This document shows, in pieces, positions 3,102-8,951 of a stretch of 10,642 bases of DNA. Source of the DNA: DATKZS01 sp035527835 [NCBI: bacterium] (GTDB lineage: Bacteria; RBG-13-61-14); NCBI GenBank assembly GCA_035527835.1, contig DATKZS010000042.1:1-10642 (forward strand), written 5' to 3'. Within the stretch, counting starts at the first letter, position 1. Each line of letters opens with the position of its first letter. The position numbers were made by a program, and so were the translations under genes. The notes under the pieces are model-generated. The model saw nothing but the letters and a program-made list of their open reading frames with translations. It did no database searches and had not been told where the DNA came from.

Positions 3102-3971
3102 TCAATGGGTTGATACGAATGATCGGAGGAATTTTGTCGCCGCTGTCTTCGCATCAAATTCGCCGGTTATCCGGTCTCCATTGTTGTATCGCACAGAGAC
3201 CTCAAACCTAACAAATGAAGTTGGGGCCTCTTTCACATTGTATTTTTCGATGAACCCTATGGCGCCTTGTATATTAGTACACTCAAATGGAACGCCGTGT
3301 AATGGCAGAATATAGACAGATACAATGCTGCGGTTGATCGTGGACTCAAGGGATTTTATGAATTCATTTATCGCATCCAACATGGAATCAGTTAAGGCTT
3401 TCGTAACGGAAGTTTGATTAATGTAGCCTAAACGATTCCATGCACTTATTTTCTTTTTCAACTCCGCCTCTGGTGTTTTTTCTTTAAAAGACGCATCAAT
3501 GCCTACTGCGGAGAAGGCGGCAATAACCTTATCTGAGGGAATGGAGAGGACGGTGAAACCAAGTGAGCTAAGCTGATCCAATGCGTTTTTAGTAAAGACT
3601 CCAGCCAGGATTACACCTATGAATGGAGAGTAGCTTCGATATTTTTCGGCAAGAGGTATTATCGCACCCTGAATTTCCTGGGCCTTATTGCGAGAGTGTT
3701 TGGTATAGCTTCTCCAGGCGGTTTCGATAAAAGCGGCCGGAGTCCCGATTTTTTCCGGGGAGCCTCCACGCTCAAGTACGAAATCAAGATCATGGACGTT
3801 TCCAGACCTGTCCTTCCAACTGACTTTCTTCCCGGTCCTGGCCGGGCGATCGCCCTTGCAATCAAGAAACAAATCATGTTTTTTTGCAAAGGCTTGGAGA
3901 ATGGGTTTCATTGCCTCTTCGACGACCTCGCCTATAATCTGCCCGAATTGATGCGCATAAGATTTAGCCAT
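3102..3971 (-). CDS. Putative type II restriction endonuclease (PD-(D/E)XK-like)
   Basis: This 289-aa cytoplasmic protein is called an endonuclease mainly because it follows a DNA methyltransferase with 3 bases between stop and start. The likely catalytic core is HDLDFVLE (60-67, with D61/D63 as the metal-binding acid) followed by AAFIETAWRSYTKHSRNKAQ (79-98, with E83). The usual lysine two residues after the glutamate is alanine (A85). K91 or K96 on the following helix may replace it. The rest is mixed helix/strand with no recognised DNA-recognition domain, so no target sequence can be proposed. Start ATG 3971 has GGGAT in the end of the methyltransferase gene as its likely ribosome site, suggesting coupled translation. 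The gene is clearly AT-richer than mazG and der. An alternative is a different nuclease or accessory factor of the same cassette. Confidence 0.7.
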   Translation of the reverse strand: MAKSYAHQFGQIIGEVVEEAMKPILQAFAKKHDLFLDCKGDRPARTGKKVSWKDRSGNVHDLDFVLERGGSPEKIGTPAAFIETAWRSYTKHSRNKAQEIQGAIIPLAEKYRSYSPFIGVILAGVFTKNALDQLSSLGFTVLSIPSDKVIAAFSAVGIDASFKEKTPEAELKKKISAWNRLGYINQTSVTKALTDSMLDAINEFIKSLESTINRSIVSVYILPLHGVPFECTNIQGAIGFIEKYNVKEAPTSFVRFEVSVRYNNGDRITGEFDAKTAATKFLRSFVSTH

Positions 3972-3974
3972 AAT

Positions 3975-5276
3975 TCATCCCTTTACCCAAAGGCGGCCCT
4001 CTTGCAAAGGTACTCGGTGCTTCCTATTCTTCCATTTGACGTTGCGATCACGGGTCTTTTCGAAAAGAAAGGATTTGAATCCAGCCGCTACAGCTAATTC
4101 CCCCAGCCATCGTTCAACCGGTACATATATGCCATAAGGCGCGGAGTCTCCAACAACGAAACAAACCAAACTCTCCGGAGTGGTTACCCGGCGAAGAGCG
4201 CGCCACACTTGGGCCAAATCGCTGAAATAGGCGCAAACCATTAAATCATAATCTTTCTTGCCACCATGATTCAGTTTTTCCTTTTCAAGTTTATGGCAAC
4301 TATTGGATATTTCATCACGAATCGGCAGAAGAAGCTCACTGGAAAGCATCTCATCCAAATGCCCTTTAAGTTTTGAAACGTGTTGAGTACATGAACTAAC
4401 TAAATGCTTTCTGACCGCCGCCTGCAGGTCGCCCCATCCTTGGATCTCTCCCAGGAAAGCCATCTCCAATCTAGTGGCGTCCGCATAATCATAGTTATTG
4501 GCATACGGCGGAGAGGTAATCACAAGGTCAATTGATGAATCGCCAATTGAAGAACATTCGCGGGCATCTTCTTGGTAGAGAATAGCAGGGTGTAAAGACT
4601 TTTGTCTCTGACATATCATCATGTCATGGGCCATTAGGTTTATTTTGCCCCAATATGCTTCAAACGGCTTTTTGGTCTTAGCTTTGGCCTTTTTGGGAAG
4701 AACGTATTGCCATTGCGCGGTTCCGACTGGAGAGCATTCGCGAAGAATTGAAACCAGAGCCAGCCAAACCAATTCCGAGCTTGCACTATCATCGGCGGAA
4801 GACAGCCACGCTTTTTTTAGGGCATCCAATTGCTGGAGGATCGGACCGGGAAAACATTTCTTAATTAACTCGGGATAATCAAACGGTTCTGAAGAAAACG
4901 ATCTCGCTTCCTCCAATATGGTTGCCGCGTACTCCTTAAATGCCAGCGGATCAGTTTTCCATAGCATCTTCGCGCGACCAACCCTGGATATGAAGGGATG
5001 TGCTTCTACTCCTTTACCCTTTACGCCGCCGAATTCGGCTTCCAACAAGACCGTCGCGGACCCGGCGAAAGGATCCAATACATTGCTTCTGCCATTCGAC
5101 TTTTCTCTAGCGATAAGCTCCTTAACCCAGTTCGCAGAGAAACCAGCCGAGTATCTGAACCAGCGATGAATGGGCAGAGAAAGATTGTCAGAAAAGGTGG
5201 ATGATTTGTCGGCCTTGTTGGCAACTTTCGGCTGATCAAAAAGGTCTAGCTGACCGGTTTGTTGATTATACGTCAT
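3975..5276 (-). CDS. Site-specific DNA methyltransferase (amino-methylating, SPPY type)
   Basis: This protein transfers a methyl group from S-adenosylmethionine to adenine N6 or cytosine N4 at the target site, protecting it from the adjacent endonuclease. SAM-binding motif I is LDPFAGSAT (67-75), with a preceding PIHRWFRYSAGFSANWV segment (35-51) that resembles motif X. Catalytic motif IV is TSPPYANNYDY (254-264), followed by FVVGDSAPYG (373-382) and a basic C-terminus (RNVKWKNRKHRVPLQEG). Motif I precedes motif IV by about 180 residues. That gap could hold the target-recognition domain (alpha-type order) or be an insertion. TSPPY favours N4-cytosine but does not prove it. Length is 433 aa. 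ATG 5276 has only a weak, distant GGAT upstream. It is the first gene of the minus-strand operon, AT-rich relative to its flanks, with a candidate promoter at 5305-5333. Confidence 0.9.
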   Translation of the reverse strand: MTYNQQTGQLDLFDQPKVANKADKSSTFSDNLSLPIHRWFRYSAGFSANWVKELIAREKSNGRSNVLDPFAGSATVLLEAEFGGVKGKGVEAHPFISRVGRAKMLWKTDPLAFKEYAATILEEARSFSSEPFDYPELIKKCFPGPILQQLDALKKAWLSSADDSASSELVWLALVSILRECSPVGTAQWQYVLPKKAKAKTKKPFEAYWGKINLMAHDMMICQRQKSLHPAILYQEDARECSSIGDSSIDLVITSPPYANNYDYADATRLEMAFLGEIQGWGDLQAAVRKHLVSSCTQHVSKLKGHLDEMLSSELLLPIRDEISNSCHKLEKEKLNHGGKKDYDLMVCAYFSDLAQVWRALRRVTTPESLVCFVVGDSAPYGIYVPVERWLGELAVAAGFKSFLFEKTRDRNVKWKNRKHRVPLQEGRLWVKG

Positions 5277-5290
5277 TGTATTAGATGCTA

Positions 5291-5305
5291 TCCTATTAAT
5301 TAGGA
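5291..5305. promoter_or_regulatory. Palindrome in the methyltransferase leader, possible operator
   Basis: TCCTA-TTAAT-TAGGA is a perfect 5-bp inverted repeat around a 5-base centre. It lies between the proposed -10 box and the methyltransferase ATG, where a repressor (for example the methyltransferase itself, as in some restriction systems) could act. No controller gene is present and the repeat is short, so this is speculative. Confidence 0.25.
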
Positions 5306-5333
5306 TTGTAGCAACTCCTCAACTATAATACAA
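5305..5333 (-). promoter_or_regulatory. Candidate promoter for the methyltransferase operon
   Basis: On the minus strand, TTGTAT (5328-5333) is followed after 17 bases by TACAAT (5305-5310; 5 of 6 matches to TATAAT). Transcription would begin about 20-25 bases before the methyltransferase ATG. The -35 matches poorly. The surroundings are AT-rich, so chance matches are likely. Confidence 0.4.
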
Positions 5334-5455
5334 GAACTTTCATGAAACAAGGTGATTAGAGTTTGTTAAAAGGTTGAGTGTGAGGTTGCCGCTGTTAGAA
5401 CATCTGGAAATAACTAAACATTATGATAAGATGATCAAGGGGTATTAGACAGGAG

Positions 5456-6952
5456 ATGGAAGTCAGGGTCCTTGGCTGTTCGGGCGGGCGTAGTCCCGGC
5501 CTGGAGTTGAGCAGCTACTTGATTGATTCGAGCCTGCTGATTGACACGGGCGCGCTCAGTTCGAGCCTCACCCTGCCGCAGCAGGAGACGATCACGGACA
5601 TCCTGATCACGCACGCCCATCTCGACCACGTCGCCGGCCTCGCTTTCCTCTATCTGAACACGTCGGGCTCGCGGTCCCGTCCCGTTGACGTTTACGCGAC
5701 GGAGCCGGTGATCCGGGAGATCAAGGAGCACCTGTTCTCGCCGGAGATATTGCCGGCGCCGCTGGTGGAGCAGGGGACGCCCGGGATCAACTTCCATTCC
5801 ATCGTATTCGAGATCCCGTTCAAGGTGGGTTATTACGAGGTTGAGGCCTTCCCGGTGAACCACTCTCCGGGCTCGGTGGCGTACCGCGTTTCGGACTCGG
5901 ACCATACGTTATTGTTCACGGGCGACACGGGCCGGACGGACCGGGTCTGGGAGTGGGTGCGCAAGCGGGGCGGGGTTGACTGCCTGATCGCGGAGGTCAG
6001 TTTTCCGGACCGGCTGCTGCCGCTGGCGGACGCGAGCCGGCATTTGACCCCGGCGACGCTGATCGAGTCGCTGCGGAAGGCGGAGATTCACCCTGACCAC
6101 AAGGTGCACCTGGTTCACCTGAAGCCGGCGTTTATGGGGGAGCTTCTGGACGAGATCGAGGCGCTTCGGGACTGGAATCTGATCATTCTCCGGCGGGGCG
6201 ACGTGATCCGGATGGAGAAGGGCGAGCAGGCGGCGCGGATGGCTCAGCCGGACGTCGAGGACAAGGTCCGGGACAAGGAGTTCGCGTTTGACGCGGACGC
6301 GGACCTTTACGAGCAGCGCAAGCAGTTGGCGGAGCAGTTCGGGGTGACGGTGAGCGCGGGCGACGCGGTTTTCCGGCAGGGCGACCGGAGCCGGATCATG
6401 TACATCGTGCAGGAAGGCAAGGTGCGGATTTACCGGAGCGCGCCGGGTATCGAGAAGACGCTCGCGATCGTGGGGCCGGGCGATTTTTTCGGGGAGATGG
6501 CGATGCTCAATAACCGTCCGCGCTCGGCCACGGCCCAGGCGCTGACCGACATCCGGCTGCTGGCGTTTGACAAGAACGCGTTCGAGAAGCTGGTGGTCAA
6601 CAATTTCGGAGTGGCGCTGCGCATCATCCGGACGCTGGCGATCCGGCTGGCGGACGCGGACACGCTGATCGAGAACCTGCTCTACCTGGACCCGCAGTCC
6701 AAGGTGGTGAACACGCTGATCCAGACGGCGTACGACGAGGGGATCGAGACCAGCGAGGGCTACCTGGTCCGGACCACCCCGGAAAAGCTCGCGGACAAGA
6801 GCGGCGTGGTCCTGCCCACGCTCCGCCGGATCATGGCGGAAATGGTCGAGCAGAAATTCATCGTGGCCCGCAAGGAAGCCCTGGTCATACCCAACATCCC
6901 GAGGCTCCGCCGGCTGCTCAAGTTCCTGGAGCTCAAGGACGAGTTCTCGTGA
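5456..6952 (+). CDS. Class II cyclic-nucleotide phosphodiesterase fused to a CRP-like cNMP-binding/winged-helix module
   Basis: This 498-aa protein has three parts. Residues 1-252 form a metallo-beta-lactamase fold of the class II cAMP phosphodiesterase type: LGCSGG (6-11), LLIDTG (27-32), THAHLDH (52-58), H136, FTGDTG (154-159), HLTP (196-199) and HLKP (221-224). The metal ligands H53, H55, D57, H58, H136, D157 and H221 are all present, so hydrolysis of 3',5'-cAMP or cGMP is plausible. After a charged linker, residues about 288-400 form a cyclic-nucleotide-binding domain with an intact phosphate-binding cassette, FGEMAMLNNRPRSATA (345-360; E347, R356, S357). Residues 411-475 align with the CRP winged helix, but L453/P454 replace the DNA-contacting R/E. 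There is no signal peptide. AGGAG directly abuts ATG 5456; AAGGGG lies 13 bases upstream. A stop blocks any earlier start. It diverges from the restriction operon. Confidence 0.9.
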   Translation: MEVRVLGCSGGRSPGLELSSYLIDSSLLIDTGALSSSLTLPQQETITDILITHAHLDHVAGLAFLYLNTSGSRSRPVDVYATEPVIREIKEHLFSPEILPAPLVEQGTPGINFHSIVFEIPFKVGYYEVEAFPVNHSPGSVAYRVSDSDHTLLFTGDTGRTDRVWEWVRKRGGVDCLIAEVSFPDRLLPLADASRHLTPATLIESLRKAEIHPDHKVHLVHLKPAFMGELLDEIEALRDWNLIILRRGDVIRMEKGEQAARMAQPDVEDKVRDKEFAFDADADLYEQRKQLAEQFGVTVSAGDAVFRQGDRSRIMYIVQEGKVRIYRSAPGIEKTLAIVGPGDFFGEMAMLNNRPRSATAQALTDIRLLAFDKNAFEKLVVNNFGVALRIIRTLAIRLADADTLIENLLYLDPQSKVVNTLIQTAYDEGIETSEGYLVRTTPEKLADKSGVVLPTLRRIMAEMVEQKFIVARKEALVIPNIPRLRRLLKFLELKDEFS

Positions 6953-6972
6953 TCCTCAGCACGGCAAGAAAA

Positions 6973-7065
6973 GAAAATCAACCACCAAGACACCAAGATC
7001 ACGAAGGAAATTTTCTGATCAATAATATTTTTTTGGTGATCTTGGTGTCTTGGTGGTTGATTTTC
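6973..7065. repeat. Perfect 30-bp inverted repeat, CCAAG family copy 2; probable bidirectional terminator
   Basis: Arms 6973-7002 and 7036-7065 are exact reverse complements (30 of 30), around a 33-base AT-rich loop. The arms are built of CCACCAAGA/CACCAAGA units, the A-variant of the CGCCAAGA units at 5-42 and 10443-10512. It lies between two convergent genes, 20 bases after the phosphodiesterase fusion stop and overlapping the dehydratase stop (7064-7066). On the minus strand the stem is followed by a T-rich stretch (TTTTCTTTTCTTG), so it probably terminates the dehydratase transcript. Termination on the + strand is less certain. Confidence 0.85.
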
Positions 7066-8287
7066 AGCTCAACATCTCGAGATAAGCGTCAATCCGGCTT
7101 TTGATCTGCTCGGACTGGTAGAGGCGGGGGTCGCCGTGGTCGGTGTCGAGCAGGAGTCCGGGCTTTCCGGTGATGCGGGTGACCTCGTTCGCGGTGTCGG
7201 CGAGTCCGATCGAGAGGAAGCGGCAGGAGTGGTCGGAGTGGAGGATGAAGCCGTCGAGGTCATAGCGGCGGATGGTCTCGGCGATGTCCCAGGCGCGGTC
7301 GCGGATCATGGGGTCGTAGTTCTTGAGGTAGTTGACCGCGTATCCCTCGAAGACGTTGTCGGGGTCGGATGAGAGCTGGGCCCAGGCGCGGGTGTAGTTG
7401 TTGGCGACCAGGTTGGCGCCGCGCTCGAAGAGGATCATGTAGAAGTCGGCGATGGACTGCCACAGGGGCAGCCCGTCCCAATAGAGGCGGTACTTTTCGT
7501 CGGGGATGCCGCCGATCTTCTTGGCCACGCGCTCGTTAAGCTCCATGCCCAGCTTCTTGTAGAAGTCCACTGTTACCTGGGTGCCGCGCTGGTCCACGAT
7601 GGGGGCCATGGCCATGTACTGGTCGAAGAGGGTCAGCGGCGCGGGCTTGGCAATGGCGGTTTCCAGGATCATCCACCAGATTTTGCACGCCTCGCGTGAC
7701 AGGTTCATCGTGTCCTTCAACTTTTGCGGGTCCATCTTGCGGCCGGTGATGTCCTCCATCCAGCGAACGCACTCCTTGAGCTGGTCCACGATGTAAGCGA
7801 TCACGTACGGGTCCGGCTCCGAGGCAAAACCCCGGCCCTGGCTCGGGATGTCCAGAGCGAAGAACGGGACATTGTAGCGCCGGGCCAACTCCTCGAACCA
7901 CTTGCCGATGGTCCAGCACTGCACCGAGCAGAACAGGATCATGTCCGGCTCCGGCAGGCCCCCGATCGGCGAGCTTTCCTTGCCCAGGTGCCGGTAGCCC
8001 AGGTCGCACCGGGCGTACGAGCAGATGTCCGGCGCGTAACCGTGCGCCTCCGCGGCCTCCGCCGTCTCCAGCGCCTTGTGCTTGGCCTGGATCGCCACCG
8101 CGTGGTTCTCCGGGTACGCCGGCAAAATGTCCATCGCGTAAGCCAGCTCCGTCGGCGCCAGCGCGTTCATGTAACAAACCTTTTTGCCCTTCTCCTTCGC
8201 CTGGTGCAAACCGATGTGATAAAAGAAATTGATCTGCTTCAAGTCCTTGAGCGCCTGGATGCGCTCCGCCTTTTTTTCCTCCGCCAT
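7064..8287 (-). CDS. 2-hydroxyacyl-CoA dehydratase / benzoyl-CoA reductase family subunit (HgdB/BcrB/BcrC-like)
   Basis: Proteins of this family bind a [4Fe-4S] cluster and carry out radical-based removal of water from (R)-2-hydroxyacyl-CoA, or ring reduction of benzoyl-CoA in anaerobes, together with a paralogous subunit and an ATP-dependent activator. Family features, numbered from the upstream ATG 8290, are KKVCYMNALAPTELAYAMDI (37-56), candidate cluster cysteines DICSYARC (C90, C95) and CSVQCWTIGKW (C121, C125), then LHSDHSCRFLSIG (C356) and a C-terminal LLDTDHGDPR segment (380-389) before a final helix. Length (about 407 aa) is typical. AAGGAG (8294-8299) is 6 bases before ATG 8287 and only 3 before ATG 8290, so I prefer 8287. 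No partner subunit or activator is in the window, and the substrate cannot be told. The gene is monocistronic, ending in the inverted repeat at 6973-7065. Confidence 0.88.
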   Translation of the reverse strand: MAEEKKAERIQALKDLKQINFFYHIGLHQAKEKGKKVCYMNALAPTELAYAMDILPAYPENHAVAIQAKHKALETAEAAEAHGYAPDICSYARCDLGYRHLGKESSPIGGLPEPDMILFCSVQCWTIGKWFEELARRYNVPFFALDIPSQGRGFASEPDPYVIAYIVDQLKECVRWMEDITGRKMDPQKLKDTMNLSREACKIWWMILETAIAKPAPLTLFDQYMAMAPIVDQRGTQVTVDFYKKLGMELNERVAKKIGGIPDEKYRLYWDGLPLWQSIADFYMILFERGANLVANNYTRAWAQLSSDPDNVFEGYAVNYLKNYDPMIRDRAWDIAETIRRYDLDGFILHSDHSCRFLSIGLADTANEVTRITGKPGLLLDTDHGDPRLYQSEQIKSRIDAYLEMLS

Positions 8288-8372
8288 CATACACTCCTTA
8301 AGGGGTACTGCATGATAAAGGTATCACGGGGCGGGCGATTAGACAAGGTTTGGATTATATGGATTTTACTGC

Positions 8373-8400
8373 TTGACATGGGATACGACAGGATTACAAT
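8373..8400 (+). promoter_or_regulatory. Strong sigma70 promoter for the pilin-like gene
   Basis: A perfect -35 TTGACA (8373-8378), a 16-base spacer and TACAAT (8395-8400; 5 of 6 matches) precede the gene at 8448 by a leader of about 40 bases. This is the best promoter match in the window. It suggests substantial expression of the small gene downstream. Confidence 0.75.
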
Positions 8401-8433
8401 GGCAACGGGTCCATGTCAGAGCAAGACCGAAAA

Positions 8434-8440
8434 AAGGAGG
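8434..8440 (+). promoter_or_regulatory. Consensus Shine-Dalgarno fixing the start of the pilin-like gene
   Basis: AAGGAGG lies 7 bases before ATG 8448. The frame is open further upstream to 8373, but that extension overlaps the promoter. This ribosome site therefore decides the start. Confidence 0.85.
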
Positions 8441-8447
8441 TCCGGAC

Positions 8448-8951
8448 ATGAATAGGAGCGGAGACCAAAATCAGTGCGTCAAAGTAGAGAGGGCCCTGAT
8501 ATTGGCGGCGGCGTTATCGGCTACACTTATTCTCGGCATGTTATGGTCCGGGTGCAGGGTTGAGCCGAACTGCGATTGCGCGCGGGGCTGTGATTGCGTG
8601 CAATACGGGGACTTGATAGCCCTTCAGGGCGAGGTCAAGGCCAACCTGGTGGATATCTATACATCAGAGGTCTCTTACTTCGGAGAGAACAACACTTTCT
8701 CGGGCGATTTTTCTGAAATCTACTGGTACCCGGTGGATGAAACCCGCTACGCTTATTTCCTGCCGGGAGATTCGATTCAACCAACGTTGGGCGGCTCTTA
8801 CCGTCTTCCTCCGGGAAGATCGCCCGCCGTCAGCGAGACCGGCTTCACGGTATTTGCGGCCGGCAACATTGATTGCGACCAGACGCTTGACGTGTGGAGC
8901 ATAAATGACGCAAAAAAGCTGGTGAATTGGATCAACGACGTTACCGAATGA
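8448..8951 (+). CDS. Pilin-like globular domain on a lipoprotein-like N-terminal anchor
   Basis: This 167-aa exported protein has unknown function. A basic N-terminal region (1-15) precedes a hydrophobic segment (16-35, ending MLWSG) and C36, an imperfect lipobox because W occupies -3. A cysteine cluster follows: C36, C42, C44, C48 and C50 (CDCARGCDC at 42-50). From about residue 58 to the end (LQGEVKANLVDIYTSEVSYF, then GENNTFSGDF, then AAGNIDCDQTLDVWSIN) it resembles the globular part of Desulfobacterota-type type IV pilins/pseudopilins, in which KxNLxxIxTxExxYFGENNTY and GNIDxDxTxDVW recur. That comparison is from memory. The prepilin cleavage motif G-F-T-L-x-E and its conserved helix are absent. 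Promoter and ribosome site are both near consensus. It converges with bioA, stops 25 bases apart, with no obvious terminator between them. Confidence 0.8.
   Translation: MNRSGDQNQCVKVERALILAAALSATLILGMLWSGCRVEPNCDCARGCDCVQYGDLIALQGEVKANLVDIYTSEVSYFGENNTFSGDFSEIYWYPVDETRYAYFLPGDSIQPTLGGSYRLPPGRSPAVSETGFTVFAAGNIDCDQTLDVWSINDAKKLVNWINDVTE

Follow-up and report, generated by a model that had tools for sequence, protein, structure and literature searches.

We address the question of whether the protein encoded at this locus binds the same nucleotide that it hydrolyses. In an initial annotation of the window (the whole stretch of 10,642 nucleotides analysed here) a single polypeptide was described in which a metallo-beta-lactamase (MBL) half, read as a class II cyclic-nucleotide phosphodiesterase, is followed by a CRP-type cyclic-nucleotide sensor. 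Our results suggest that the product is probably a phosphodiesterase from the class II lineage that acts on a cyclic mononucleotide; it would carry its own CRP-type receptor domain, and binding there would raise hydrolysis. The features of the protein are collected in Table 1.

The open-frame list of the window places the fusion gene at 5456..6952 on the plus strand, with an ATG start and 498 codons for amino acids. Both presumptive sites lie in this one frame. The MBL motifs are THAHLDH (residues 52-58), H136, GDTG (156-159), HLTP (from 196) and HLKP (from 221); the phosphate-binding cassette FFGEMAMLNNRPRSAT begins at residue 344, which places R356 as it was numbered earlier. The claim of one polypeptide with MBL motifs, an intact cassette and a winged-helix region is borne out by these positions. 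Pfam searches of the whole protein returned cNMP_binding (94.3 bits, cut-off 27.5) and Lactamase_B_2 (69.7, cut-off 27) over their cut-offs, and HTH_Crp_2 (26.0, cut-off 27) and PDEase_II (21.5, cut-off 23.7) below them; HTH_Crp_2 passes when the CRP half is searched alone. The third-position GC content (GC3) of the MBL half (0.86) and of the CRP half (0.92) resembles that of the der, mazG, HGD-D and aminotransferase genes (0.84-0.90); this even codon usage makes an assembly chimera unlikely. A promoter and terminator scan of positions 5200-7200 revealed a single weak promoter-like site on the minus strand and no terminator. The full-length structure model has a pTM of 0.39 and a poor MBL half (pLDDT mostly below 50), and contacts between the domains cannot be read from it.

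Table 1. Features of the fusion protein, with coordinates in the window
Feature	Coordinates	Strand	Basis
MBL-fold class II phosphodiesterase-like domain, residues 1-258	5456..6229	+	Pfam, NCBIfam, 24-relative profile against solved structures, AlphaFold2, metal ligands identical in 186/186 relatives
Metal-binding motif THAHLDH, residues 52-58	5609..5629	+	H53, H55, D57 and H58 in 186/186 relatives
Altered loop, residues about 94-103; N..IWPDFT in relatives	5735..5764	+	Alignment of 186 relatives
Linker and entry helix joining the domains, residues 259-290	6230..6325	+	Position between the halves; low-to-middling model confidence
Cyclic-nucleotide-binding domain, residues 298-382	6347..6601	+	PF00027, 94.3 bits, E 4.5e-27
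Phosphate-binding cassette FFGEMAMLNNRPRSAT, residues 344-359	6485..6532	+	Kept in neighbouring-gene CRPs
Winged helix-turn-helix with atypical recognition helix, residues 416-487	6701..6916	+	HTH_Crp_2 scores, alignment
C-terminal stretch RRLLKFLELKDEFS, residues 485-498, mark of its own CRP group	6908..6949	+	Aligns with ...RLLKYLEMREIFG

Beside the fusion gene, on the minus strand (3102-5276), a DNA methylase gene (N6_N4_Mtase, 40.6 bits) adjoins one for a 289-aa protein that has no match in Pfam and may be a restriction enzyme. Their GC3 of 0.46-0.48, as against 0.84-0.92 in most other genes, suggests a restriction-modification pair of recent acquisition. The gene at 7064-8290 (minus strand), which adjoins the fusion on the other side, resembles the D component of 2-hydroxyglutaryl-CoA dehydratase (PF06050, 224.7 bits), and no second gene of this kind occurs among the nine scanned. 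A 192-aa protein (8373-8951, plus strand) matches the type IV pilin PilA weakly (21.9 bits, cut-off 28.5). None of the nine genes scanned with Pfam is a cyclase. At the loci of relatives that were examined, no counterparts of the window's neighbouring genes were found except for one mazG and one aminotransferase match.

The claimed CRP-type half with an intact phosphate-binding cassette was recovered as described, the PF00027 domain being accompanied by a complete cassette. In the alignment this cassette is kept in CRPs encoded next to stand-alone phosphodiesterase genes. It is of the GE..RSA form, which we take to be the cyclic-mononucleotide type. The CRP half groups with these neighbouring-gene CRPs, is 40% and 42% identical to those in genomes G001 and G002, and shares their C-terminal stretch (RRLLKFLELKDEFS in the window; RLLKYLEMREIFG, for example, in others). 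The HTH_Crp_2 score of the half alone is 28.5 bits (cut-off 27); the CRP neighbour at locus L222 reaches 43.1. The winged-helix fold is well predicted in the full-length model, with pLDDT values of 82-94 by block over residues 411-480, and is followed by a C-terminal helix (481-497) whose final residues are of low confidence. The recognition helix reads VVLPTLRRIM, and the pattern R-E-T-V-x-R is absent from the whole CRP group to which the window protein belongs in the alignment; the canonical helix RETVTRIL is present in the CRPs of loci L220 and L291. The lack of canonical CRP residues in the recognition helix makes DNA binding by the window protein doubtful.

By model scores, the family placement of the window's MBL half taken by itself is ambiguous. 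Searched alone, it scores 71.8 bits with Lactamase_B_2 (PF12706) and 23.6 bits with PDEase_II (PF02112), just under the cut-off of 23.7. NCBIfam models for RNase Z (54.9 bits over residues 43-150 only, equivalog cut-off 292.95) and for atypical class II enzymes (NF041851; 40.1 bits over residues 1-226, equivalog cut-off 400) also match it. PDEase_II matches all 24 aligned members of the family, the window included, at E ≤ 0.001 (best 5.5e-21), as does the RNase Z model (best 5.2e-22). When a 24-member profile was compared with solved structures, yeast PDE1 (4OJV) ranked highest (1.5e-17), followed by RNase Z (5.5e-13) and by 6KNS (1.2e-11), a chain of B. subtilis YhfI. PF02112 exceeds its cut-off at exactly the MBL-family gene in four of six genomes searched; among 14 control genomes, two gave a match and none passed the cut-off. 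The PDEase_II scores of relatives over the cut-off are 67.7 (G209), 67.7 (L222), 56.3 (G470), 53.6 (G633) and 33.7 bits (G001). NF041851 finds its best match at other genes in three of four genomes (G209, G001 and G470), and in the fourth (G633) the MBL-family gene is its sole match, with 38 bits. The RNase Z model is best at the MBL-family gene in G633 (54.5 bits) and G470 (43.5 bits), both far below its cut-off; in the remaining four of the six genomes its best match is at another gene.

Typical class II enzymes are distinguished by PF02112 and the metal motif HxHLDH, and atypical ones by PF12706, in the sections of PMC9293780 used here. The THAHLDH of the window protein has the HxHLDH form. 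From the PDEase_II matches of relatives, the order of the profile matches and the genome searches with PF02112 and NF041851 we surmise that the MBL family falls on the typical class II side; judged solely by its Pfam scores, the window copy would be placed elsewhere. The class II reading of the initial annotation accordingly stands for the family, with its PF02112 matches and yeast PDE1 as best structure, and is borderline for the window copy. A placement with RNase Z or PhnP, which would speak against that reading, was not obtained, the RNase Z cut-off being 293 bits; part of the concern stays, in that RNase Z outscores PDEase_II on this half, both being below their cut-offs. In a phylogenetic tree the 27 family rows, the window included, are set apart from nine other MBLs at 99/99, several of these nine being long branches and characterised class II sequences being absent from the tree. 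The AlphaFold2 model of the MBL half has the MBL fold (pLDDT 77, pTM 0.82), and its closest folds are those of PDE1 (Z 23.6, 250 residues, 2.8 A), arylsulfatase (23.6) and RNase Z (23.2), scores so nearly equal that the comparison cannot separate PDE1 from the other two. A PROSITE-like class II pattern has no match in the window protein.

H53, H55, D57, H58, H136, D157, H196 and H221 are identical in all 186 aligned relatives, and K223 in 182. The window copy departs from its family in a loop: position 95 is Asn in 182 and Asp in four of the 186 relatives and Ser in the window, and position 99 is Trp, Tyr, Cys or Phe in all 186 and Leu in the window. The relatives' loop reads ...FNNxIWPDFT, a WPD-like stretch being recognised by a regular expression in 166 of the 186, and its counterpart in yeast PDE1 is NDLIWPD; the window has SPEILP, two residues shorter. 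Among the 186 relatives and the window, alteration of the N..IWPD loop, a feature read off these alignments and not a published class II criterion, is restricted to the fused copy. Substrate choice, rate or regulation of the fused copy may differ as a result of the altered loop.

A survey of the architecture revealed the fusion in no other genome searched, and in relatives the two halves are separate genes. Whole-protein searches of 13, 145, 198, 199, 149 and 23 genomes, partly overlapping, contained no frame covering both halves among the matches listed at the E-value limits; for the sets of 145, 198, 199 and 149 genomes the best few candidates per genome were scored, and the empty result for the 149 genomes carries little weight. 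A search of 198 genomes with the MBL half yielded no long frame that includes it. Measured from stop to stop, the frames of 186 MBL genes reach 642 (L221, in G751) and, next, 390. The first of these was rejected as a fusion, since the MBL frame extends upstream and a cNMP match is absent; behind long frames in G488 and G460 lie MBL genes of ordinary size, 262 and 270 aa. Among 80 control loci encoding cNMP domains, matches that begin within the MBL half at E ≤ 0.01 came from two: L046 (0.001) and L066 of Pelagibius, whose match spans 188-381 and which by eye is a membrane transporter that also contains a cNMP domain. Plasmids yielded 411 matching records, none reaching 80% query coverage, phages one weak match and viral contigs nine distant MBLs; a joint alignment with the viral MBLs set them on the CRP half and was left unused. 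The fusion may be confined to one lineage.

The MBL family itself is widespread, with matches in 61 of 198, 101 of 198 (including two with CRP only) and 51 of 199 genomes of three sets, and the genes around its stand-alone members are informative as to function. In the phylum of G004, a 'Nitrospirae' genome (set B; 198 genomes, match limit E ≤ 1e-28), 101 genomes match, two of them with a CRP only. Both CRP and MBL are listed in 20 genomes; in 17 they lie on one contig and the same strand within 3.5 kb, with the CRP upstream, and in the remaining three they are on separate contigs. The neighbourhood was examined at 95 of the 100 MBL places in this phylum, that is, all save those of G513, G587, G639, G552 and G579; locus L189, from another phylum, is excluded from the counts. 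On the same strand and within 3 kb, a CRP gene is found upstream at 22 and downstream at three of the 95 loci, and a class III cyclase upstream at 22 and downstream at six; a GAF/HD-GYP gene upstream (34 loci) is commoner than a cyclase. A CRP or a cyclase, on either side, accompanies 40 of the 95, and neither accompanies 55. For the phylum of G001 (set A) 72 loci were examined, drawn from 59 of 61 matching genomes and 13 further ones, with the partial matches in G080 and G124 left out. Here a CRP lies upstream at eight loci (a direct neighbour in seven), a cyclase upstream at three and downstream at one, and a GAF/HD-GYP gene upstream at 11; 13 of the 72 have a CRP or a cyclase. All of these counts are lower bounds owing to contig ends, and related genomes are not independent. 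As a control, about 3 kb on each side of 20 der loci, examined with an identical match limit, contained no CRP, no cyclase and one HD-GYP match; these were the first 20 rows of a listing, a non-random sample, from the phylum of set A and not of set B. In the phylum of G006, an 'Acidobacteriota' genome, the MBL occurs in 51 of 199 genomes and a CRP match at the limit in none, so that the CRP-MBL pairing is not universal.

A recurrent gene order is trpA, GAF/HD-GYP, CRP, (cyclase), MBL, accD, folC, seldom complete. At locus L220 the cyclase gene is followed by MBL, with a one-base overlap between the cyclase stop and the MBL start, and, after 27 bases, by CRP; L291 likewise has cyclase, MBL and CRP. 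The MBL-then-CRP order of these two loci is that within the fusion. All five neighbouring cyclases that were scanned were confirmed as PF00211 (Guanylate_cyc) and contain CHASE2 or HAMP parts. Of 24 cyclase candidates, 23 retain the metal motif together with a lysine preceding GD; in the exception (L199) the motifs were missed by the regular expression and the protein is accepted by Pfam. This lysine, with Thr or Asp at the second site, is presumably of the adenylate-cyclase type.

Several arrangements at these loci deserve description in their own right. A class III cyclase gene lies directly upstream of the MBL gene at L236-L239, L245, L268 and others, with CHASE2 in L237, L228 and L306. GAF/HD-GYP genes are found upstream of the phosphodiesterase gene at L222, L230-L232, L147, L148, L151, L154, L155 and others, often in the trpA...accD-folC setting; c-di-GMP and cAMP signalling might meet here. 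Upstream of the HD-GYP gene at L147 and L155 lies a frame that matches cNMP twice; it is 382 aa long in G002 and 437 aa long in G001. In two genomes of the G006 phylum (L226, L227) the next gene downstream of the MBL gene encodes 521 aa; its beginning is FHA-like, as judged by eye, and it matches a cyclase.

The simplest interpretation is that one nucleotide is both ligand and substrate of the protein, because the kinship with class II enzymes is combined with a CRP-type receptor, and because the two halves are gene neighbours in relatives, often with a class III cyclase. The adjoining CRP, MBL and class III cyclase genes suggest that the putative substrate and ligand is a cyclic mononucleotide, with cAMP the likeliest. 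The adjacency of the genes for producer, degrader and receptor in relatives, together with the union of the last two in the window protein, is best read as one feedback circuit. A cyclic nucleotide (most likely cAMP) would bind the C-terminal cassette, movement of the CRP-like part would raise hydrolysis at the N-terminal metal site, and feedback removal of the signal would result, as in Dictyostelium GbpA/GbpB. The same nucleotide would then occupy both sites, binding would activate and not inhibit, and DNA binding would be lost or secondary. Tentatively, and with somewhat less than even confidence, we propose a bacterial one-chain cAMP feedback element, in which two genes of the cyclase/CRP/class II phosphodiesterase/HD-GYP group have been joined and the CRP part has traded DNA recognition for control of the enzyme.

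Other readings of the fusion can be weighed against this one. The protein could be a transcriptional regulator that switches itself off: the nucleotide-bound winged helix would bind DNA, and the MBL half would lower the local cAMP to reset it. This would agree with the recognisable HTH_Crp_2 of the CRP half, with its well-predicted fold and with the loci L220 and L291, which end in CRPs with canonical helices; the window's own helix and its whole CRP group lack the R-E-T-V-x-R pattern, however, and we regard such a regulator as unlikely. Less probable still is a hydrolase of the RNase Z, PhnP or arylsulfatase kind in the MBL half, controlled by a cyclic nucleotide that is not its own substrate. 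While the score of RNase Z above that of PDEase_II, its best matches at the family gene in G633 and G470 and the equally close folds would be expected in that case, the RNase Z match is limited to one part of the domain and lies far below the cut-off, the family carries HLTP at the place of the HST motif of RNase Z, PDE1 has the IWPD loop and E-x-S..GHL[TS]P..EL in common with the family, and cyclases are frequent neighbours.

The signal might also be other than cAMP, for instance c-di-GMP or 3',3'-cGAMP, as HD-GYP genes often adjoin and, with 34 of 95 and 11 of 72 loci in the two phyla, are commoner upstream than cyclases. We consider this improbable: class III cyclases adjoin the gene as well (upstream at 22 of 95 loci), and the cassette is of the mononucleotide type. 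Moreover, the MBL phosphodiesterases tested in the parts of PMC9117128 consulted cut cyclic mononucleotides. Finally, the fused copy could be catalytically weak and serve only as a receptor or tether, its loop, common to the family and yeast PDE1, being changed in this copy alone; all metal ligands, H196 and K223 are kept nevertheless, which leaves a weak enzyme quite unlikely.

If the favoured reading of a phosphodiesterase controlled by its own receptor is true, the one-chain element is a bacterial parallel to Dictyostelium GbpA/GbpB, and the separate CRPs encoded next to stand-alone MBL genes are candidate regulators of the phosphodiesterase in trans. Several bacterial groups, largely known from metagenomes, are suggested to pair a class II phosphodiesterase with a CRP-like receptor in cyclic-mononucleotide signalling. 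The fusion offers a single protein in which binding, hydrolysis and their coupling can be measured together, and the neighbourhood survey offers a testable function for a widespread MBL family.

In the literature searched, mainly non-subscription full text and in part only excerpts, no bacterial MBL phosphodiesterase with a cyclic-nucleotide-binding domain was found, nor, among the papers listed, a description of a cyclase/class II phosphodiesterase/CRP operon. A paper on Myxococcus vesicles (PMC4158809) was set aside as a precedent: the terms belong to separate proteins in a table in the part retrieved. CRP/FNR regulators share with the window protein the binding domain with an intact cassette, the long C-helix and the winged helix; the window protein differs in its atypical recognition helix, its extra C-terminal stretch and its N-terminal enzyme. 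Yeast PDE1 and other PF02112 members have HxHLDH, NxxIWPD (as in the relatives) and E-x-S..GHL[TS]PxxLxxEL in common with the family, whereas the window protein has an additional CRP-type half, no IWPD loop and a score just below the cut-off. The MBL-fold proteins Rv1339, YhfI, C. glutamicum CpdA and Apyc1 hydrolyse cyclic nucleotides according to excerpts of PMC9293780 and PMC9117128. PF12706, the label of the atypical class II enzymes in the former excerpts, is the best Pfam match of the window's MBL half, yet atypical class II enzymes and Apyc1 seem to be a separate lineage from the family, NF041851 being best elsewhere in three of four genomes.

Two systems combine sensing and hydrolysis on one chain. 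In Bd1971 of Bdellovibrio a CRP-like domain gates an EAL phosphodiesterase, so that cAMP is sensed and c-di-GMP is cut (PMC6717892, in the sections available); it resembles the window protein in joining a cNMP domain to a phosphodiesterase, and differs in having EAL in place of MBL, the opposite domain order and c-di-GMP as substrate. The initial annotation named no characterised example of such a protein. This must be corrected in view of Dictyostelium GbpA/GbpB, in which, from the accessible portion of PMC11988041, an MBL class IIb domain is followed by two binding domains and activity is raised by binding of cGMP or cAMP, the nucleotide that is hydrolysed. The order from N- to C-terminus, MBL phosphodiesterase and then cyclic-nucleotide-binding domain(s), is that of the window protein. 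The likeness is one of description and not of sequence: GbpA/GbpB are eukaryotic, have two binding domains as against one, and are given no winged helix in the same portion. The principle of a nucleotide-activated hydrolase is already known; the bacterial gene-neighbour context adds new support.
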